From the NCBI GenBank assembly GCA_030737835.1, contig CM060854.1, positions 12,286,311 to 12,350,310 of the forward strand: a stretch of 64,000 nucleotides of DNA, read 5' to 3'. The position numbers were made by a program, and so were the translations under genes. The stretch's first letter is position 1; every line of letters begins with the position of its first letter. Below, one piece after another: positions 8,800 to 54,214 of this stretch. This stretch comes from Acorus gramineus. Taxonomy: Eukaryota > Streptophyta > Magnoliopsida > Acorales > Acoraceae. The notes beneath the pieces were generated by a model. The model was not told the DNA's origin. It did not search any database and saw only the letters and a list, made by a program, of their open reading frames with translations.

Positions 8800-11700
8800 A
8801 TGAGCGCATCAAAGTTTATTAAATGTGTGACAGTTGGTGATGGGGCTGTTGGGAAGACTTGCATGCTCATCTGCTACACCAGCAACAAATTCCCAACTGT
8901 GAGAATGATAGACCCATTTCATCAAATCTTCCCTTTTTTGGAACTTTGTGTTAAGCTTTCCATTGATGGTTGCTTTTAAATTTTTTTTAATTTTTCATGT
9001 GTTTGTTAACTTATGTTGGAAATTGGAATTCCTATATAACGTTATTCTTTTTTAGTGTGCACATTTTGGACTAGTAATACATGCTCCATTATTATATATA
9101 TATATATATTTTGTAATGTTTCAATTCTTCCAACCCATTTCACCAAAATCTTTCCTTTTTGAAATTTTATGTTTGGTATTCTATTGATTGGTTGTTTTCA
9201 AATTTTATTTATTTATTTATTTTTTGGTTCTTCATGTTTTATTAGCTTCCGGTGGAAATCTCCACATATCTTTTTCTTTGTAGTCTGCATTTTTGGATTT
9301 GCTACATAGAAATTTTCAATTCTTTCAATCCATTTCACCAAATCATCCTCTCTTTTTTATAACTTTTGGTTACCGTTGAAGGGTTTTTTTTTCTTATTTT
9401 TATTATATTCTATTTTTATGGTTCTCTACTTGACATGGTTTTTGTTTCAACCATATTTTCTGTTTCATTTGGCTACTTATTCATCTTGATCTGATGATAT
9501 AAGGTCTCATGTGTTCTGAATTCTACTCACTCTCTTTCATGTTAATGGATTGAAGGATTACATTCCCACTGTGTTTGACAACTTCAGTGCTAATGTGTCT
9601 GTGGATGGAAGCATTGTGAATTTGGGACTTTGGGATACTGCAGGTAATCCTTATTTTTCTTGCCTGTGATGTTGATGTGTTCATTTGTTGTTTTTTATGG
9701 TTTTATGTTCAAACCTATAAAAACATTTCAGGCCAAGAGGATTATAGCAGACTAAGGCCATTGAGTTACAGGGGAGCAGATATATTTGTTTTGGCATTCT
9801 CTTTAATAAGCAGAGCAAGCTATGAGAATGTTATGAAAAAGGTGAGGTCTTTAATTCTTTAACCTTTTTTGTTTACTGAAGTCTTGTTTTTATTCCTGCT
9901 TTGGTTTGAACTTTTAACTCTTTATTAAAATTTAACAAATGGATCATCATTTATTTTAAAAAAAAGACTTGCTTTTGCTGGTCTCAAAATTGTTGACTAT
10001 TGTGCTTCTTTTCTTCTCTTTGTTTTCAAATTAAAGTTTCAAAGACTTTGCTTTTATGCTTTTCTTTTCTTTGCTTTTTTTATTTGCTTTTGAGGGTATG
10101 TTTGAATCACTTTGAACAATGGTTTGGTGTACATGTTGACTGAGATATAATAACAACATTATAAACTAATTTATAATTTTTATAACCAAATCTCAGGTAC
10201 CCACTGAGGGATCCTGGGCTTGAGTCTTACTACTATTGATAGGATAAGATTTAAGAGAAAAAACTAATAACACTTATTTACTAATGTACTGCATAATGTC
10301 TTTCATTGTTGATCAGTGGATGCCTGAACTTCGTCGATTTGCACCCAATGTACCGGTTGTCTTGGTCGGAACAAAATTAGGTGCATTCACAACTCAATAT
10401 ATGCAAACAAGTTAATTTTTTTGGCTGAATCTATGGCAATATAAGTCCAAAGTTGCTCTCTTAATTTCCAGATCTCCGTGAAGACAAAGGATATCTAGCC
10501 GATCACCCTGGCGCGACTGCAATAACATATGCTCAAGTAGTACTATTTATAAAAAAAATATTCTTAAAAAATATTTGAAAACACTGAACTTGCATGAGGC
10601 TTGATATTTGTTTGTTGATGTGTAGGGTGAGGAGCTTAGAAAACAAATTGGTGCAGCAGGGTATATTGAATGCAGCTCTAAAACTCAACAGGTGTGCTCC
10701 ATTGAAGACATTCACATAATCCAACATCACCGATCATTGGGATTTATGATAATAAATTTCTGTTTGTTGTTATTGTTGTTTGAAATAGAATGTCAAGGCT
10801 GTTTTCGACACCGCGATCAAGGTTGTCCTTCAACCTCCACGAAGGAAGGAGATAGCGAAACGAAAAACTCGTAGAAGTTCTGGTTGTCCAATTATGTAAG
10901 TACTAATATGTGATTCCTTGTATTTATTTCTATATATCAAGTTATGTCTCAATATCTCAATGTTATTAATCCTGTTATACTATGGATGGAAGAATTTCTA
11001 TTAATTGTTTATGATTGTTTCATCTACCTTCATGACAATATGTCTACCTTCATATGAATACGTCTTTAATACACTCAATGGTTATTTCTTTATTGGTTCC
11101 TTGTATTTATTTCTATTAATTGCTTATGATTGTTGCACTTCACTGAACATCTAGAGGGATTCTTTTATCAGTTTATGTTTTTCTTGATTCCTTGTATTTA
11201 TTTCTATGTATCAAGTTATATCTCAATATGTCTGAAGTTATTAATCCTGTTGGACTATGAATTGAAGAGCTTCTATTAATTGCTTATTGTCGTTTCATCC
11301 ACCTTTGTAAGAATATATCTACCTTCATATGATAGTTTCATATAAATATGTCTTTTAGTACACTCTATCTTGGCTCCTTGTATTTATTTCTATTAATTGC
11401 TTATGATAGTTCCATCTGAATATTATGTCTTTTAATACACTCAGTAGGTGTATCTCTCTTGGTTCCTTGTATTCATTTCAATTAGTTGCTGATGATAGTT
11501 TCATCTGAACATATCTTTTAATGCATTCAATAGTTATGTCTCTCTTGAATCCTTATATTTATTTCTGTGTATCAAGTTATATCTCAACATGTCTCAAGTT
11601 ATTATAATCCTGTCATACTATCAAAGTCTCTTTTGATCTAATAATGAATGACATGACATATATGACTGTTTGTCAGAAAAATAGGACCAATAATTAGTCA

Positions 11701-11873
11701 TCAAGAATATTGAATAAGTAGCAGAAAATGACACTATTCTAATTATTCTAACTTGAATAAGTTCATCCTTGTTTCCTATACCTGAAATTATATTTGTGAC
11801 TTGGTATCTTGTATTAATATCGTCTCTCTTTTTTTCCAGGAGTTTTGTGTGTGGAAGCACATGTGTTGCTTAG
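8800..11873 (+). CDS. Type II ROP/RAC Rho-of-plants GTPase
   Basis: Small GTPase switch that acts at the plasma membrane in plant polarity, ABA and defence signalling. Exons: 8800-8898, 9556-9643, 9732-9841, 10317-10380, 10472-10536, 10626-10691, 10789-10895, 11840-11873, giving 210 aa. Visible motifs: P-loop GDGAVGKT (residues 13-20), switch [10 protein letters not shown] (35-43), DTAGQ (60-64), TKLD (118-121), ECSSKT (157-162), polybasic tail, then GCPIMSFVCG, the GC-CG box of type II ROPs that are S-acylated instead of prenylated. The eighth exon is the extra exon typical of type II members (ROP9/10/11 group in Arabidopsis). All junctions are GT-AG and the frame is open throughout. The last intron (10896-11839) starts GTAAGT. 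If it is retained, the protein stops after Cys-Pro-Ile-Met. The next gene downstream is convergent, about 1 kb away. Confidence 0.95.
10910..11640. repeat. Degenerate tandem repeat inside the last ROP intron
   Basis: The block TCCTTGTATTTATTTCTAT, followed by TATCAAGTTAT..CTCAA and TTATTAATCCTGTT, recurs near 10916, 11192 and 11549. Shorter partial copies (CCTTGTATTTATTTC) lie near 11099 and 11376. The unit is roughly 280-360 bp and imperfect. It lengthens the intron that splits the C-terminal lipidation region. Confidence 0.6.
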
Positions 11874-12916: not shown

Positions 12917-15310
12917 TTAAGACGTCATCGACTGAGTGTTGGGTGAAATTGTAGCTCCCTGCTGCTGCTGCTGGTGCTGCTGGAGGACTTGAGCAAGGTT
13001 ACCATTCCACCCTACAATACAAACATTCAATACACAAATCAACATGTCAGGCTCACAATCACTCATTTGGATACAAACAAGCAGAGCTATTCAACCCTGA
13101 TAGCCATACTAAGATCTATATCAGCATACACGACAATCCATGTTGAGTAAATGATTCTTTCTTTCTTTTGTCAATTTTGTTTCACATTGAAAAAATATAA
13201 AACTAATCTTTTTATTTTTGTGTCCAAAGCAAGAGATGGATGATGATTTATAATTTTTTAAAATAGAAGTTCCACCCTTTTATTAATTGCCTGTATCTTT
13301 GAATGTGCGTTCGCGTTGCATAATATATATGTGACATGCTATGATGCGTGTCAAAACATTACGTGAAAGAATTTTTTTTTGAAACAATAAATGAATACAA
13401 GCTGAAATATTATAAAGAATTTTTTTTGAAACAATAAATGAATACAAGCTGAAATATTATAAGAGCTTATACTTATTTATTCAAACATACCTACCAAGTT
13501 TTATTATAACTATTAGTAGTGTTTATTATTTTATTTTTGACAAAACAAAATATAAAAGTCTATCTTTTTATTGTTTGGAGATAAAATGTGAATAATGATC
13601 TATTATTTTTTAAATGACAATTCGACCCTCTACTAATTATTTAAATATGAGGATGTGTGCGAGAGATGCATATGACAGATGTGGAATGCTATGATGCATG
13701 TGTGAATCTGTTGGGATAATTTATTTTAAAAATATAACATAGACAAACTATTCTAGTCTCCTTTTCCTTGAAACTACAATCAGAGCTTACACTGGTTTAT
13801 TCAGATGTTCCAATCTGGTTTCATTATGATAAAACAAATTAGTTTTGTATTTTTTAACATCCAGGGAGACATGGAACAACACAAATGGGGGCCAAAACAA
13901 TAAATCCCTTACACGGGCCTTTATAAAAAGAAAAGAAAAGAAAAGATGTAATGTTGATATGTTTAAAAGGTGTTCATTTGTTTACCAAGAGAAGGGTCAA
14001 TCCCTCTGTTCTTGAGCTCTCTAAACTCCTGACAAAGGGCACAACAGGGGCAGAAGGCATGGGCAATCCAGTCCTCAGTTGGTGCCTCCACCAGGTTGTA
14101 TCTCTGCCTTAGCCTTCCCCTATATATTGATCCTAATATCCAACATGAACACACTGCTGGTGCCATCATCATATACATCAAACTCCCCAATGAACATCCT
14201 GTATCAATCATCACACAGAGCATTGCCACACACACACTTTTACATTCATTCATGTAGATGTCATGTCACCTGACGTGGTATATGAAATTATACAATGTAG
14301 TATATACTCTATTATTAAAAATGTGTGTATCTGATTGTGTGTAAGAAATTATCTAACGAAATATATACTCTACAATGTCAACATATGTGAACCAATAAAG
14401 TGCTTACTTGTCTGGCCTCTTTCTAAAATCTCTGCTATCTGCCCAAACGTGACACAAGGGAAGAATGCAGTCAACACAGCTGCATCCAAGCAAAGCAAAA
14501 CAAAAATTTAGTGAATCATGAAATTCAAATAAATTTGATATACGAACTTGTTGATCTTACAAAGCCAAAAAAGAAATGTTGATCTTCACACAGAGATTAT
14601 ATAGAAAGGAAAGAAATTTGTGAACCATGGCTTGCCATATCCATTTGATGAGTCCTTTTATTCATCACAAAATCAAAAAAAAAACATCAAATTTTGTGAT
14701 TATATAGAACTAGTTTTCCATGATAGCTGTACGATTGAGGCCCCATTTGGAATGGTTAAGCTGATTCTATTTTTGTTTATGTAAAATCAATTCTAAATGG
14801 ATATTTTTAAATTCAACTTTTAATTTTTACGTGTTAAGAGTCAGTAAAACAACTTTTTATGAAAAAGTTAGATTGATTCGTTTGAATATGCAGGTTAAGC
14901 AAAATATTTCTAAAAAAACTATTTGGTTCCAAACAGGGTCGAGTATCAAAAAAATTGTTACAGGCACCTAGAAAGGATTCTGTACCGTTGGACTCATGTT
15001 CGTGGCAATCAAATAGACCGGTGGTCCATGGCAGTCCGATCACCACAGGTGGTGGTTGAACCGGTGGTACATGTGATTGAACCGGTAGTACATGTTGCAC
15101 CTCTGGTTGTGGGGTAAACTGCACCGAAACCTCATCTTCTGGTGCAGCCCAATTCATCTGCTCCTGCTGCAACATTGGAGGGAACTGCACCGGATGTGAC
15201 GCCTCATGTGAATCATCCGATCCACTTGAGCCTTCACCTTCATGGCTTGCGCTAGGCGGGGGGATGGCCTCTGTGTCTCCTCCAGTCTCATCATACGTCG
15301 GCTTGCCCAT
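12917..15310 (-). CDS. PLAC8-family membrane protein (PCR/cell number regulator-like)
   Basis: Exons (minus strand): 14986-15310, 14408-14479, 13986-14198, 12917-13011, giving 234 aa with GT-AG introns. Residues 1-90 are an acidic, Pro/Gln/Ser-rich low-complexity tail. The PLAC8 domain runs from PWTTGLFDC (94-102) through AFFPCVTFGQIAEIL (113-127), a hydrophobic Met-rich segment (136-157), and the cysteine-rich FCPCCALCQEFREL (181-194), to DPSLGWNGN (200-208). A polyglutamine stretch then precedes the stop. Members include plant cadmium resistance and cell number regulator proteins, which are plasma-membrane proteins linked to metal efflux or organ size. The conserved Cys-rich segments identify the family, but substrate and role cannot be read from sequence. 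The 90-residue N-terminal tail is longer than in typical PCR proteins. Exon joins were made by hand; the start is the first in-frame ATG. Confidence 0.9.
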
Positions 15311-23209: not shown

Positions 23210-23896
23210 TAGGTCTGTCAACGGGTCGGGTCCGGGTGGACCCGTACCCGACTCGTTGCAAGACCCGGCGGATTTAGGGAAATGTGGATCCGGACCCGGG
23301 TCCCGACTCGTTGCAAGACCCGGCGGATTTAGGGAAATGTGGATCCGGACCCGTCGGATCCGGGTCGGGTCAGGTCCTACTCGGATGGTTGGTTAAAAAA
23401 AAAGAAAAAAAAAAGAAAAGAAGCACTTATGTATTTGTTTGTCTTATCGTTCTATTTGAAATTTTTTGTAATAAAATATTATTATTAATGAGACTATGTT
23501 TGAATATAATTTTATACAATTCAAAAGAAGTAAATGAATTATTAAACAACATCTAAAGCAACATCTACACAATGAAAAAAATGTTATGATTATGATTATG
23601 AATTTATGACTTATGATTTATGGGCTTGTTATGATTATGATCTATAAACTTGTGGATACAAAAATAAGTTAAATAAGAAATAAAATCATGTATCAATTAA
23701 TACTAATGGTCTTATAATATATGAGCATATTTTAATAAAACAATTGGGTCTCGGGTCCAATGGGTCGGGGCGGGGTGGACCCGGACCTAATCCGTTTGTA
23801 TGTTCGAGTCCACCAGATCGGATCCAAATCGGATCAGATATATTACACGTGTAATCGAGTCCGGATGGAGTCCGGACCGACCCGTTGACAGGCCTA
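23210..23896. mobile_element. Non-autonomous hAT element, GGGTC-rich ends
   Basis: Terminal inverted repeats TAGGTCTGTCAACGGGTCGG on the left and the inverse, ending CGTTGACAGGCCTA, on the right. Flanked by 8-bp near-identical duplications GGACTGAG (23202-23209) and GGACCGAG (23897-23904), differing at one base, as expected for an older hAT insertion. The interior has GGACCCG/CGGGTCC-rich subterminal blocks and an AT-rich centre with no transposase. It ends about 207 bp before the PPR gene start codon, so it probably lies in or next to that gene's promoter. Confidence 0.8.
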
Positions 23897-24103
23897 GGAC
23901 CGAGTAGACCTCTATCGGTCCGGTTCATAAAGGGCCACGATCCGACCCGGCCCAATTCAAATCCCTGCTCGATCACTTCCTCTCTCCCCCCTTCCTTCTT
24001 CACCGCCGTCTCTTCCCCTTTTCAATGGCGTTTGTTCTCTGAATATAAAAACTCCTCACGTTTCCATGTTTTCATCGCAGATGAAGAACTAATTCAATCC
24101 TCC

Positions 24104-27100
24104 ATGAAGATGAGACCCATATTTCTGTTGAGGCAATCCCTCAAAACCCACATCAGAAACACCGCCAAAAACATCTCCACGTCCACCTCCAGACACCTCC
24201 CTCTCTTCAACACTTCCAGACCCCTCCAAACCCTAAAACCCACCACCACCACCACCTCTGCCGCCTCCGCCGCAGGCGGCCCCTTCTTTCACTCCCGAAG
24301 CCTCCATGAAGCCTCCGCCGACGAAGACCCTGCCTCCGAAGGAGAAGAAGACGGCCCCATGAACGAGTTCCTGTCGAGGTTCGTGTCGCTCATGCGGTCC
24401 AAGCTCGTCGAGGCCTACCCTGACTGCGACAAGCCGACGATCGATTCGATGCTCCTCGTCATCGCCCGGAAGGTCGTCTCCGAGATGGACGGGTCCGGGC
24501 TCGACCCAAAGCTCCGATCTTTGAGTGCCTCCGCCCTGTCGGCCGACCTCAGCGAGGACCTGTGGAGGACCGTTTGGGAGATCAGCAACTCGGTGTTCGA
24601 GGGCATGAAGAACGAGCGGCGGAGGAGGGAAATGAAGGGCTTCCTCCAGTGCGACGACGTGAAGGCGATGTGCCGATTCGCGTCCGATGTGGGCGTGCGC
24701 GGGGACTTGCTTCACGAGTTCCGGCTCAAGTGGGCGAGAGAGAAGCTCGAGGAGTCGGAGCGGTACCGCGAATTGATGCGGAACCCGCCGGGCGTGGCAC
24801 GGGAAGAGGCGGAGACGCCCGTCGAGGTTGTTGATCTACCGAAGAGGCAGGGGAAGATCAAGTACAAGATACATGGGTTGGATTTGTCGGGGTCCGAGTG
24901 GGCGGAGGTGGCGTTCAAGACGGAGGAGGGGGAGAAGCGGGTGTTCGCGGAGGTGGCGAAGCCTGTTATGGGGAAATGCAAGCTTGTCACAGAGAGGGTG
25001 CTTGCGATGGGCGAGGGGGATGACTTGTCTGGGGTGGTGGGAGAGTGGAAGGAGCTTCTCGAGCCGTCGAGGGTTGATTGGGTCGCGTTGATGGAGAGGG
25101 CGAAGGAGCGGAGTCAGGGTCTTCACTACAAGGTTGGTGTTGGCTAACCTTCCTCTTATGAAGTTTTTATTCTTACATGCCCGTGTTTTTTACATATCAT
25201 ATGAAGTTTGTTGCTCTAGATTGTTTGCATCACCATGGTATTAACGATAAAGAAGCTAATTCCTTCATTTCTCTCATTACATAGGAAGTTTATGATTTTT
25301 TGTTTTAGTATTTGTGAATGTCTGTATTTTGAGTTTTTATATTTTGTTTTTGTTTGAATGATGTATTTTTAGATAATGATCTTCACGTTATTGATCTTGG
25401 ATAAACATGTGTTTAAATTTGATATTTTAGAAGTCTGTAAAACAAGTCTCTAAAAGTTTGTTAGATGTCCATTAAAATCCATACGTAGAAGTCTATAAAA
25501 ATCTGTAGAAGTCTATAAAAATCTGTAAAAGTCTGCAACTGTTTTTTTAAAAATCCGTAAAGTCTACAAACGCCCATTACTTAAATAATGTCCACAAAAT
25601 CTATCAAAAGTCTCAATCGACTACCTCCCCCTAAAGTAGCGTTTGGAAACACGTTTGGATGATTATTTGGAACAACTTGAGAGGGTAGTTCGCCATACTT
25701 TCTATTTTCCGTTTCCAATAAATAGAGACTGTCCATAACAGTGTGGAATATAACCCCAGTTTACACGAACTTTTTAGAGCTCTCTTCCTATTACACATGG
25801 TTAGGCTGATATGCAGTTGATTAATCCATCAGCATATCAATTGCTAATTGCGAATTATATACCATTTGGTTCTTTCCCCCCTTTTCAACAATTCTGTTTA
25901 AGAGCATTTTTTTTTCCGAATTTTTGCTAGTCATGTTAGAATGTTCATTTATTCTTCCTTTTCATACTTATTTTCTGTTCACATTACTGCATGATCTTAC
26001 ATTAAGCAACTGCAAAAACAAATGACTTCATTTAATGCACACATGAACATATTATGTAATCAAGCCTGTTTTTATCACAGTTTTATTTTGTTTTCCTTCT
26101 GTAGCTTGCTGAACTACTCCTAGACGAGGAATCTTATCGACCAACTATCAGTGATTACTCAAAACTGATCGATAACTACACAAAGGAAGGCCGTGTAGAA
26201 GACGCGGAGAGAATCCTCAACAAAATGACAGACAAAGGCTTGAAACCTGATGCTGTAGTCCATACAATATTGGTTCATCTATACAGCAAGGCAGGAAATC
26301 TTGAACTTGCAGAGGCGGCCTTCAACAACCTGAGAAGCCAAGACTTCCGACCAAGCTTGAGACTCTACTCCTCGATGATAATGGCTTACGTGAAAGCCGG
26401 ATCTCCCAAGTCAGGCGAAGCTCTAATGAAAGAAATGGAGATGAGAGACATCAAACCCACAAATGAGATATACATGGGGTTGTTGAAAGCGTTTGCAGAA
26501 CGTGGCCACGTCGATGGGGCCCAAAGAATATTCACAACAATGCAAATCGCTGGTCTCCACCCGACTCTCGAATCATGTACACTACTCGTTGAGGCCTACG
26601 GACAAGCCGGGGATGTGGACCACGCGAGGAGCAACTTCAACTTCATGTTGAAAGCCGGTCACAAGCCAGACGACCGGTGTGTTGCCGCCATGATCACGGC
26701 CTATGAGAAGAAGAACATGCTCGACAAGGCGTTGAACTTGCTCTTGGAGCTTGAGAAGGATGGGTTTGAGCCTGGGACCGCGACTTACTCGGTTTTGGTG
26801 GATTGGCTTGGGAAGCTTCAGCTGGTCGACGAGGCTGAGCAAATGCTTATGAAAATCAACGAGAAGGGAGAGGAGGCTCCGTTTGAGATAAATGTGAGCA
26901 TTTGTGAGATGTATTCGAGGGCGGGTGTGAAGGAGAAAGCTTTTGAGGCGTTACAGAGGTTGGAAGCGGAGAAGGAGCGGTTGAGGGAAGACGAGTTCGA
27001 GAGGATCGTGGAAGGGCTTTTGGTGGGTGGGTTTTTGTCGGATGCGAAGAGGGTGCATGAGTTGATGCAGGAACGTGGGTTTGTTTTATCAGAGCGGCTT

Positions 27101-27166
27101 AGGGTGTCTCTCATGGCAGCTCAGGCAATCCCTCGCCAGAGACCGAGGCCGAGGCCGAGTAAGTAA
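24104..27166 (+). CDS. NFD5: Mitochondrial-type PPR protein, NFD5-like
   Basis: P-class pentatricopeptide repeat protein of 696 aa. Exons 24104-25132 and 26105-27166, separated by a phase-0 GT-AG intron. Residues 1-65 are rich in Arg, Ser and Thr and lack acidic residues, a typical mitochondrial presequence. Next come a conserved acidic-flanked block, EFLSRFVSLMRSKLVEAYPD (88-107), and LSEDLWRTVWEISNS, then a lineage-specific linker. The second exon holds about eight PPR helix pairs, beginning near TISDYSKLIDNYTKEGRVED, with no E or DYW tail. The architecture and these blocks recall Arabidopsis NFD5 (nuclear fusion defective 5), a mitochondrial PPR of about 725 aa; this is from memory. An upstream in-frame ATG at 23885 lies inside the hAT terminal repeat, so 24104 (next ATG at 24110) is preferred. 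Exon 1 is GC-rich relative to the region. Confidence 0.9.
25420..25600. repeat. Short tandem motif in the PPR gene intron
   Basis: The motif GTCTATAAAAATCTGTA, with variants, recurs about five to six times between 25430 and 25590. This resembles the subterminal repeat clusters of some plant DNA transposons. No ends or target duplication could be defined. Confidence 0.4.
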
Positions 27167-49304: not shown

Positions 49305-51530
49305 TCATCCAAATATTCTCAGAAGTCCTTTCTTTTTGGCTTTTCTCGGAGCAGGAGGTGCTGATGAAGAGGGTACGTCAGTTGCTGTGGATGGCGGCAC
49401 ACCTGATTGTGGTGGAGTGGTAAATTGTTCGCCCGATCCCCGACTGGCAGTAGTAGAAGTACACCAAACCCTGCGTGGTCCACGAGTATATGTCTGGAGT
49501 GTCATCTGTGGAGCTCGATCAGGAGCTGGGGCTGGTTGTTGTGGTTGCTCATCGATCTCTGCATCGAGTCGTACATCATTGAAGAACTCGTCAATGGTGA
49601 ATTCCGTGTGAGCGAAACTATCATCTACCACATCCTGAGAATCATCAGCATCTGTAGATGCACTGGGGGTACTCGAAGGTTGTCCCATGTCTCCCATCAT
49701 CGCATCTGCATAGTCCCGTGCCACAGCAACTATACGATCCCACTCACCGCAGTTGGGGTATAAGACCAACCCCCTTGCAAGCACCTCGGTAATGTTCTGT
49801 GTAACTCCCCCCTGTTAACAAAAGTTTCAATATGATAAGTATATAAAATCATTTATCACTATCTAAAAATGTAACACGCGTTTAAAATTCTTACCGAATT
49901 TGGTGCGACATAGCCTGGATGGTACTGTGGGGGTGGTGGAGGTGTGATATGTCTGACTGTTCTCTCCCAGTACCACTCCATATATCTCCTCGAACTCCGG
50001 GTATCAGGAAATTGGTGGATGTGATCCAATCGTTGGTCCCAACGCTCGATATAAGACTGGTGGAAAACTATCCAATTCACATCCTGTCTACCTCGTCGGT
50101 TTACCCGGTCGATGGCCTCTACATCAGATGGAATGTCCTGATGCCATCCAAATTGACGTGCGACTCGATCTGGCACGTGCATCTCCACAATATCAAAGCA
50201 AATGAGTGGGACCCTAGCCGTCCACAACTCCATATGATCCATACATGCAGGTGGTAGTGTCTCATATGTCCCAGGATAAGGCTGCCATATAACCTACCAA
50301 AAACCAAATATATAATTAGTATGACAATTAACATAGAATATATCATTTGTGAAATATATGGCTAATTGTATAGTCACCTGCGACTGAAGCTGATAGTCCA
50401 GTTGTGCTCTATAGTATATCAGAACACGCGAATTTTCATCAAACCTCTGAGTCACCTTCCACCTGAAATATCGAATTTAATGATATATGATCTTCTATGA
50501 ATTGACAAAAGAAGATGAAAATATTGACATTACCTTGCTCCCAAAGGTCGATCTCCAAGAATAAAATCCGGATCATGCAATGACGGTCGTCCCACATGTA
50601 ATCTCTCCCACGACCATAGCTGCATTGGAACAAAATCTTTAGTAACACAGAAAAAAAAAAACAAATTTAGTATGTATGGATGAAAATTGGGGTTTGCATA
50701 TTACCTGTAGCAAAGAATAAAAACCATGAGATCCTGCCGACATCCTCTCTCCAAGCACACTACCTCTGTACAATGCTCTATATAAGTGGGCCAACGCAGC
50801 TGCACCCCATGAATATCGACCAGCATCCTCAAAATCTCTGAATAAATGAAGGTAGCACGCATGTATCTTATTTCCTGTGCCATCGGCGAAGATTGTTGAT
50901 CCAAGCACAAATAAGATATATGCACGTGCATACTGCTGGAGGATATCGTCGTCCAATTCAACATCTGGTACGATGCTGAAGGTTTCTTTAAGCCAAGAAA
51001 AATTCTTCCACCCTTGATCTTATCTGCAGGGGGGCCAACACCTAACAGCTCCTCACAGACGCTGGCCCAATCATCGTGGTCTGTGATACCAGTCACGGGC
51101 TTGCCATCAATGGGTAGTCCAGTCAGAATAGCAACGTCCTGAAGTGTAATTGTCATCTCGCCCTGTCGCAGATGAAATGTGTTGGTCTCTGGTCTCCATC
51201 TCTCAGTCAGTGCTTGTAGAAGTCGATGATCTGATCTGGTATATCCCATCTCTGTCAAATAATACAACCCGATGCCCTCACGTATGGCTCGATGCGTGGA
51301 TCCATGACCCAGTGACGCAATGCCACCATGTGGATCGTAAACTTGGAGGAGTCGGTCTGTTTAAGGAAATTATATATTCAAGTAAGAAAAAAATCATATA
51401 TGAAGAATAACATTAGAGAAAAACACATCATTTGTCATACCTTGCCCTGGAATCCATGATGAGACCTATGAGATCCCTGAAAATACAGCAAATCATCCAC
51501 GACGGGTCCATGCCACTCACGGATGTCCAT
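49305..51530 (-). pseudogene. Plant mobile domain (PMD, MAIN-like) gene of the MULE, frameshifted
   Basis: Six minus-strand exons: 51441-51530, 50705-51356, 50534-50619, 50378-50462, 49895-50293, 49305-49811. Conserved PMD blocks are clear: DPRIEPYVRASG / LYYLTEMGY, LTERWRPETNTFHLRQGEMT, VAILTGLPIDGKPVTG, YARAYILFVLGSTIFADGTG, GRYSWGAAALAHLYRAL and LWSWERLHVGRPSLHDPDF. The tail is Pro/Ser/Asp-rich and ends KAKKKGLLRIFG. Two single-base deletions break exon 2, near 51268-51270 (RASG to LYYL) and in the A5 run at 50998-51002 (GGRI to SWLKETFS). Adding one base at each makes exon 2 a multiple of three and joins all exons in phase (606 aa), which supports the model. PMD proteins such as MAIN/MAIL1 act in silencing and genome stability, and many PMD genes ride on plant transposons. 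The start codon is tentative. Confidence 0.8.
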
Positions 51531-51607
51531 CACCTGTAATTTGAACACAAGTTAATATCTACTCAAACAATTGAACATTCATCATCATATCACAATCATA
51601 TTTAACA

Positions 51608-54214
51608 TCAATTACCAGCATTTGTATTTCTACGTGGACATTTATTTTTTCTATGGCCTTTCTCATGACATATTGAACATGTATATCTCAGACTTGGATC
51701 CCTGGAGTCCATATGCATACGTCGGCGAGTTGATACAGGGCGCCCCGCTTGTCTCCTAACATTTGGTGGGATGAAGATGGGATCGTTTTCCGTAGGAATC
51801 GGCCAACGACTTTTATCATCAACGGAGTGGAATCGGGGTTCATAAGTGTGTCTATATGACTCTGAGGAAAGCCAATGTGACACATATCTCCCAGGACTAA
51901 TACGAGCATACCCACAGGCCGCTATGACATGTGCACATGGATAGTGAAACAACTTCGGAACATGACATTGACATTCTGCATTGTCAGGATATAGGAAAAC
52001 AATGTACATAACCGCATTCTTGTCTTGGACATTGAATTCTGATCTATCAAGCCTTCTTACTAACATCGCCCTTGCATCATGTGCAGTTCTCTCCAAATGT
52101 TGCTGCATAGATGGCACATGTTCACCTGACATGCTCTCGGCCGATTCACGCCTTGTATAAAAATACTCTGACACTCGTATGAATGTCTGTTGTAATATGG
52201 CAGTGATTGGCAACCCTCTTACACCTTTCAAGACACTGTTCATGCTTTCAGCTCTATTGGTGGTCATCGTGCCATGACGACGGCCATCGTCATAACAAAG
52301 GGCCCATGTTTGTGGAGGGACTTGATCAAGCCATGTGCGAGCTTGTGAGGAGGCAGTAAGAATCTTTCGCATTTCATCAGCAAATTGATTTGGACATTTC
52401 AAGGTGGCAGCCCTCCACACCTGGTCACTCAACTCCTTTGATTTTACATGTTTTTTGAAGTTGTCTATCATGTGTCTCATACAGAAACGATGGTGCCATG
52501 TTACATTGCTTGATTCCTCAATATCCTTCATGCCTGCTATGATGCCCAAGTGCCGATCAGATATGACACACAAATTGTTTATACCACTAACAGAAAAGAA
52601 CAAGTTCCAAAGGAAGAAGGTCCAACTGCTTCTGTTCTCAGATTCAACTATAGCAAAGGCTATCGGAAGCAAACCATTTTCTGCATCGCAAGCAGTGGCT
52701 ATCAGGAGAGTTCCTTTATACTTTCCATACAGATGTGTTCCATCGATGCAAACCAATGGACGACAATGTTTGAAAGCCTCTAAGGCTGGACCGAATGCCC
52801 AAAAAACACGTTCAAACTGTCGGATCGGTCTGCCCATGTTATTCTCTTGTATGACAGGGCCTTCGAAGAACACAGTTGTTCCTGGATTAGACCTCCTCAA
52901 GGCATCAACATATAGAGGCAACTCAGCATATGATTCCTCCCAATTTCCAAATATCCTCTCCATAGCCTTCCATTTGGCACGGTTTGCCTTTGAATATGAA
53001 ATTGTGTAGTGATGATCAGCACGTATCCTGTCCATTATCTCAGTAGCACTGATTCTCAAATTATGACGAATCGTTGGCATAATCAGCTGTGAGATATAAT
53101 CAGAACTAAATTGTCTGTGATTTGAACTGAGAAGAGGATCAAGCATGTATGAGGAACTCTCAGAGTGGAAATCTTGAACATTTCTGAACCACCGACCCTC
53201 CTCGCATATAATCTCCAATTACATTCATCATTTATGCACTTAACGGCGTATTTTTCTGCATTTGATTTCACCACATGACATTGTGCGCATTTCTTTATGC
53301 TCCAGGTTCGGACAGCATTAATGAGTGACTTCTTATTCGCGAAAAGCTGACCAACCTCAAGTTCATTACACGAAGAAGATCCGATTTCATAAATGCATGG
53401 ATGGACATTTTCAGCCACCGCCTGCTCCATAAGCTCACGTGTAGGAAACATTTGAGGAACACCATATTCACTGATGGCAGTTCTCCTCACATCATGGTCC
53501 TCCTCACTATCAGGTTCCTCTGCTTCTTCTTCTTCTTCGGATCTTCTTCATAATCATCCTCTTCTTCTTCTTCCCCTTCTTGATCTTCTTCTTCTCCCCA
53601 ATCTTGATCTTCTTCTTCTCCCCCTTCTTGATCTTCTTCTCCTTCATTGTTCACTTCAATTCCTTCACGAATATCGTCCCAACCCATGTCATGAAATGGG
53701 GACCTATAAATGCAAACACAATATACTTACATATATGAATACACCCACCAAAAACATCCTATAAATTCACAATACTTACAAATGTGGTATATTCACACTC
53801 CCATAGGCATTGGTCGGTGTTGCATCAATCATATTCTCTTGGGTGCACGGAACAAACGACGACGATGAAGGTTGATATGGTTCACGAACAATGGAAGGAT
53901 ATGAATCTTCTGCATCATAATTCATCGCGCCACGGCCTCTTTGTATGATCTCTTCCTTCTCTAACCATATTTGAATGATATGCGCGTGCTTTGGGTACAT
54001 CATTATCATAACTTTCACCCCCATATCATCTTCGAGAGGGGCACCCAAACACTTTCCGTCGTGAGTTGGATGCACAGCAGTCATGGACAATTTGTAAAGA
54101 CTTGGATCGGTATCATTTGGAGTAAATCGACATAAGAGATCTTCTTATTTATGATGGTGGTTTTCATGGTACCACCTTCATAAAATGAACTATCTTCGCG
54201 TTAAAAGAGTACAT
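51608..54214 (-). pseudogene. MuDR-type MULE transposase, frameshifted
   Basis: Two minus-strand exons, 53780-54214 and 51608-53703 (GT-AG, phase 2). N-terminal part: NAKIVH.., TTIINKKIS, DPSLYKLSMTAVHPTH. Then an acidic Glu/Asp tract, the MuDR DNA-binding domain (ELEVGQLFANKKSLINAVRT ... VKSNAEKYAVKCINDECNWR), the transposase core (VCIDGTHLYGKYKGTLLIAT, CVISDRHLGII, FCMRHMIDNFKKH, NRAESMNSVLKGV), a SWIM zinc finger (CQCHVPKLFHYPCAH) and a C-terminal zinc knuckle (CSICHEKGHRKNKCP). Four single-base deletions break the frame: in an A4 run at 54182-54185, near 54116, near 53540 and near 53140. With two bases added per exon the lengths fit exactly (844 aa). The catalytic half (51608-53140) is open without a stop. 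It does the cutting and joining of the element's terminal repeats. Confidence 0.9.

Follow-up and report, generated by a model that had tools for sequence, protein, structure and literature searches.

The last intron of a ROP GTPase gene of Acorus gramineus begins inside what would, if left unspliced, read as a Cys-x-x-Met box closed by a stop codon. In the unspliced frame the protein is 200 aa long and ends in ...RRSSGCPIM, with the G of the final ATG codon and the whole of the TAA that follows being donor bases. From the comparison with other ROP genes of the same genome we infer, with somewhat more confidence than doubt, both a direction and a mechanism for this overlap: C-P-I-M-stop would be the fossil of a type I box whose stop codon turned into a splice donor. 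The gene lies in the window, the 64,000-nucleotide stretch that was analysed (C8:12286311-12350310), and the genome searched comprised 398.6 Mb.

The gene occupies positions 8800-11873 (+) and is built of eight exons, with GT..AG at 7/7 introns and a single open frame of 210 aa (Table 1), in which a Ras domain is recognised (Pfam Ras, 2.4e-50). Its closest solved relatives are ARAC7/ROP9 (2j0v, 2e-120) and rice Rac1 (4u5x). In a ten-row ROP tree the window ROP clusters with ARAC7 and OsRac1 (support 99/98), away from the type I genes, and both of these relatives are given as type II in PMC9787843. The spliced tail reads GC-PIMSFV-CG, with six residues between the cysteines, a polybasic stretch before the box and no C-terminal CaaL; type II ROPs are defined by the lack of CaaL and by a GC-CG box whose cysteines enclose 5 or 6 residues (as stated in PMC13132179 and PMC8133555). 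While box and stop sit within exon 7 in 4/4 type I paralogs, the window gene has an extra 3′ exon, a feature that PMC9787843 states for all type II genes. The likeness to Arabidopsis ROP9/ARAC7 (2j0v) covers membership of one clade and aligned tails (GCSIASIVCGGC versus GCPIMSFVCGST) with a polybasic stretch and a GC-CG box, although ARAC7 has Ala where the window ROP has Met at the split codon. The window gene is an ordinary ROP9-like type II ROP. The earlier note had described the spliced GTPase as a type II ROP with a GC-CG tail, and the tail, the tree and the extra 3′ exon all bear this out. The main product is expected to be the spliced GC-CG-box protein, for which S-acylation is predicted.

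Table 1. Exons of the ROP gene, its last intron, and the donor and read-through box that overlap at its start (positions in the window)
Feature	Positions	Strand	Basis
ROP exon 1 (ATG, P-loop region)	8800..8898	+	exon model
ROP exon 2; donor CAG|GTAATC	9556..9643	+	exon model
ROP exon 3	9732..9841	+	exon model
ROP exon 4	10317..10380	+	exon model
ROP exon 5	10472..10536	+	exon model
ROP exon 6	10626..10691	+	exon model
ROP exon 7: end of G domain, polybasic stretch, first Cys of GC-CG box, AT of split Met codon	10789..10895	+	exon model
Read-through box TGT CCA ATT ATG TAA = C-P-I-M-stop, overlapping the donor	10885..10899	+	compared with TGC TCC ATT TTG TAA (L010, L014)
5′ splice site GTAAGT; bases 2 to 4 = in-frame TAA	10896..10901	+	exon model, donor comparison
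Last intron, 944 nt, phase 2, 72% A+T	10896..11839	+	exon model
ROP exon 8, 34 nt: rest of Met codon, then second half of GC-CG box	11840..11873	+	exon model and alignment to ARAC7 2j0v

At the boundaries of the last intron, exon 7 ends in ...CCA ATT AT, the donor is GTAAGT and the acceptor is TTTTTTTCCAG|G. Rebuilding the exon model upheld the earlier reading that the unspliced frame gives C-P-I-M, followed by a TAA within the donor GTAAGT and preceded by a polybasic stretch. This donor is the only GTAAGT among the gene's seven and, with 7/9 U1 matches, is tied with that of intron 2 as the best; the acceptor is preceded by a long pyrimidine run. Between 10899 and 11624 the intron consists mostly of diverged tandem repeats, with spacings of 86 to 89 and ~275 nt around TTCCTTGTATTTATTTCT, and these repeats are also present in the partial copy of the gene described below. 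A separate 47-nt unit is found downstream in two tandem copies at 13366-13462 (98% matches, 2% indels).

A phase-2 intron with a donor of GTAA, GTGA or GTAG stops the unspliced frame at once. Read in phase 2, 18 of the 36 other ROP donors of the genome give an immediate stop, eight of them as TAA; the 36 come from six ROP genes (the window gene plus five paralogs), with the last intron excluded and both of the close paralogs L010 and L014 counted. Since half of the collected donors give a phase-2 stop, an in-frame stop at such a donor is a weak signal and on its own unremarkable. The first Cys of the GC-CG box stands at minus 4, at a distance set by the position of the intron. Chance accounts less well for the match in offset to the type I stop than for the stop itself, one exact position having a 1 in 27 chance under uniform placement (a rough, after-the-fact figure).

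The search of the genome for paralogs returned at least six ROP genes and a partial copy of the window gene. Four of the genes are type I (L010, L014, L011 and L015); they are divided into exons like the window gene as far as exon 7 and have the box at the same position, but carry their stop inside exon 7, have no eighth exon and end in CSIL, CSIL, CHIL and CILL, respectively. Both L010 (C10) and L014 (C4) end GCC TGC TCC ATT TTG TAA TC. Between the Cys codon and a point 12 nt beyond the stop, these two genes contain a single GT, which lies at offset 11 and spans TTG|TAA; the type II donor also lies at offset 11. The hexamer over their stop, GTAATC, is also found as the intron 2 donor of the window gene. 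L011 and L015, with ends CHIL-TAG and CILL-TGA, have no GT at offset 11. That an ancestral-looking box can be read at the donor, as had been proposed from the window alone, is backed by the 2/4 type I paralogs with a stop at equal offset. The proteins of L010 and L014 are 99% identical and their longest aligned DNA stretches 69 to 75% identical, which suggests that the pair is close to one witness, hardly two.

These observations are consistent with a model in which an ancestral type I CaaL box contributed, with its final codon and its stop, a GTAA that turned into a 5′ splice site. Once joined to an acceptor within what had been 3′UTR, this donor would have taken the stop out of the message and given the gene a further exon at its end, and the former 3′UTR would have become the last intron and exon 8; exon 8 is thus proposed to be former 3′UTR. 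The model predicts the donor position that is observed. Because GTAA is favoured at donors, splicing would tend to have preserved the old stop in readable form. If the intron were retained, the product would be the 200-aa protein ending in CPIM, which we take to be a by-product and not a used isoform.

In the literature, type II ROPs are derived from a 3′ intron, with the additional 3′ exon probably arising from intron insertion (PMC9787843), and their origin is also worded as a 3′-end intron insertion in PMC13132179. The earlier note had it that an intron disrupted the CaaX box. Its derivation of type II from a 3′ intron agrees with these papers, but insertion alone leaves the box intact; because an inserted intron is spliced out, CaaL and stop would stay unchanged, and "stop codon turned donor" is the better wording. 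Intronization next to a stop codon, reaching into the 3′UTR, is reported for rodent MsrB1: as proposed here, exonic 3′ sequence gave rise to an intron whose donor sits at the stop codon, and mouse has both forms (PMC2901347). In MsrB1 this donor comes after the stop and leaves the protein as it was, whereas the window ROP has its stop within the donor and receives a different C-terminus. For type II ROPs the stop-to-donor idea was not met in the literature searched; Winge 2000 and Christensen 2003 may already state it.

Adjoining the type II set in the ten-row tree (support 87/91) is the L012/L013 gene (G000:C4:5285913-5295698). It reads RRGFSIL and then TCA GTAAAT, so that the box can still be recognised by its S-I-L, but Phe stands where the first cysteine would be and no immediate stop follows. 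The earlier note had looked to relatives for C-x-x-M in the codons before the donor, and this gene, with FSIL and TCA, does not keep the feature. A search of ~30 kb downstream in three phases yielded only unconvincing candidates for its last exon, and the gene is possibly degenerating or equipped with an unusual tail.

An inverted partial copy of the window gene, L009 (G000:C8:10974500-10981500, minus strand), lies 1.3 Mb away and contains exons 2 to 8, which run from 10978154. It retains the donor, the box and the last-intron length, and differs from the window gene at 0/534 exon bases, 29/2223 intron bases (1.3%) and 8/330 bases of the 3′ flank. At the intron rate 7.0 exon differences would be expected (P(0) ~0.001, or ~0.03 if only one lineage was free to change). 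The copy is too recent to serve as an independent case. No exon 1 was found in it by tblastn in a locus reaching ~9 kb further upstream, and similarity breaks sharply at window position 9103, in intron 1. The copy is either a newly formed pseudogene or a gene that uses a different first exon.

More distant relatives came from the genome contig collection, in which four Rho/Rac-like loci (L016-L019), 52 to 58% identical to the plant ROP, fall in bacterial bins of Zetaproteobacteria (two), Maricaulis and Robiginitomaculum. Their matches end before the box (at query residue 194 at most), and they were set aside as box comparators; their place in bacterial bins reflects either contamination or transfer. 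In the viral contig collection, 2 pattern matches gave 0 relatives. Elsewhere in the window, an ORF for a PPR-repeat protein is found at 26225-27166 (+), and at 50701-53218 (-) lie ORFs in which MULE transposase and plant mobile domains are recognised and which probably belong to a Mutator-like element. A 420-aa ORF at 23885-25147 (+) had no Pfam match at E 0.001.

The overlap of box and donor could also be a coincidence, in which the phase-2 3′ intron arose otherwise, for example through a mobile element that brought splice sites and the last exon, and the TAA came with the donor consensus. We regard this as a possible but less than probable account. It agrees with the published wording of a 3′-end intron insertion (PMC13132179, PMC9787843), with the 18/36 donors that stop in phase 2 (8 TAA), with a last intron made mostly of tandem repeats and with an exon 8 that shows no convincing similarity to type I 3′UTRs, but it leaves as an accident that the donor falls exactly where two type I paralogs have their final CaaL codon and stop, on the sole GT there. 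When the intron, exon 8 and the 3′ flank were compared by blastn with up to 1.5 kb past the four type I stops, nothing convincing emerged as a 3′UTR remnant, the best match being 19 nt (E 0.001, with L011). This absence says little, because divergence is large. The conversion of a stop codon into a donor is supported by the offset-11 match, by GTAATC serving as the intron 2 donor and by S-I-L in the L013 gene; these comparisons cover one independent type II locus and one matching close pair of type I loci, among donors half of which stop anyway. Our confidence in this origin is reduced because L010 and L014 are not independent and because the regions compared gave no 3′UTR remnant. With these points taken into account, the fossil reading of the donor box still seems likelier to be right than wrong.

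In CDC42, with its prenyl and palm splice forms, the lipid tail is chosen by splicing, via alternative last exons. Splice variants that create CaaX tails are also described for plant calmodulins (PMC12609287), and a lipid switch in the window ROP would resemble both systems in having its tail chosen by splicing; the transcripts are known there, whereas a switch here would be a prediction from sequence. A working lipid switch at the last intron is no more than a possibility. It would be a living one if regulated retention of the last intron, or polyadenylation within it, led to a prenylated CPIM isoform, type I-like and potentially able to bind RhoGDI, and we consider this very unlikely. The read-through tail is a well-formed polybasic-CxxM, both ends can be read as lipid boxes (CPIM by published rules only), and with the last intron alone retained no known exon junction would lie past the stop. 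Against a switch stand the good splice sites (GTAAGT and the long pyrimidine run), the lack of the feature in the L013 gene and an RNA fold at the donor that is no more stable than expected by chance (z 0.51; 138/200 shuffles equally or more stable), and the 3′UTR of a read-through transcript would be very long. Very long 3′UTRs in plants often trigger decay. The last intron contains no AATAAA or ATTAAA, but this is a weak argument because the normal 3′ region (627 nt past the stop, with one ATTAAA) also has no AATAAA.

The prenylation rules used for CPIM come from yeast assays, not plant enzymes (PMC11304957, PMC10320760). Yeast GGTase-I is described as best on Cxa[L/F/I/M/V], which CPIM fits; when expressed in yeast, both the yeast and the human enzyme modify a part of CPIQ, with CPIM itself unmentioned (PMC11304957). 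With a Ras reporter, yeast FTase favours I at a2 and M at X, but P is absent at a1 in the Ydj1-based set (PMC10320760). The proline that made prenylation efficiency uncertain in the earlier note is less of an obstacle than supposed there, CPIQ being a partial GGTase-I substrate in yeast (PMC11304957). By analogy, CPIM is plausible as a GGTase-I substrate. Type II ROPs are reported as neither prenylated nor RhoGDI-bound (PMC13132179), so any CPIM form that does occur would be expected only rarely or under particular conditions; a review that lists ROP9 and ROP10 as shown to be geranylgeranylated (PMC12609287) conflicts with this report. The literature searched contained no paper that brought together type II ROPs, alternative splicing, an intron and the C-terminus, and PMC10779071, on AtRAC7/ROP9, makes no mention of intron, exon, splicing or isoform.

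In the papers cited, the split between type I (prenylated) and type II (S-acylated) ROPs is attributed to intron insertion, from which the stop-to-donor origin differs: a stop turned donor would account in one step for both the loss of the box and the source of the new tail. Should retention of the last intron be used, one gene could switch between lipid anchors. A wider proposal, likewise very unlikely, is that type II ROPs arose as a CaaL stop became a donor and that many, since donors favour sequence resembling G plus a stop, can still make the ancestral prenylated form by not splicing, giving one gene two anchors. If it were true, retention, for example under stress, would supply those cells with a ROP that behaves as type I and binds GDI.
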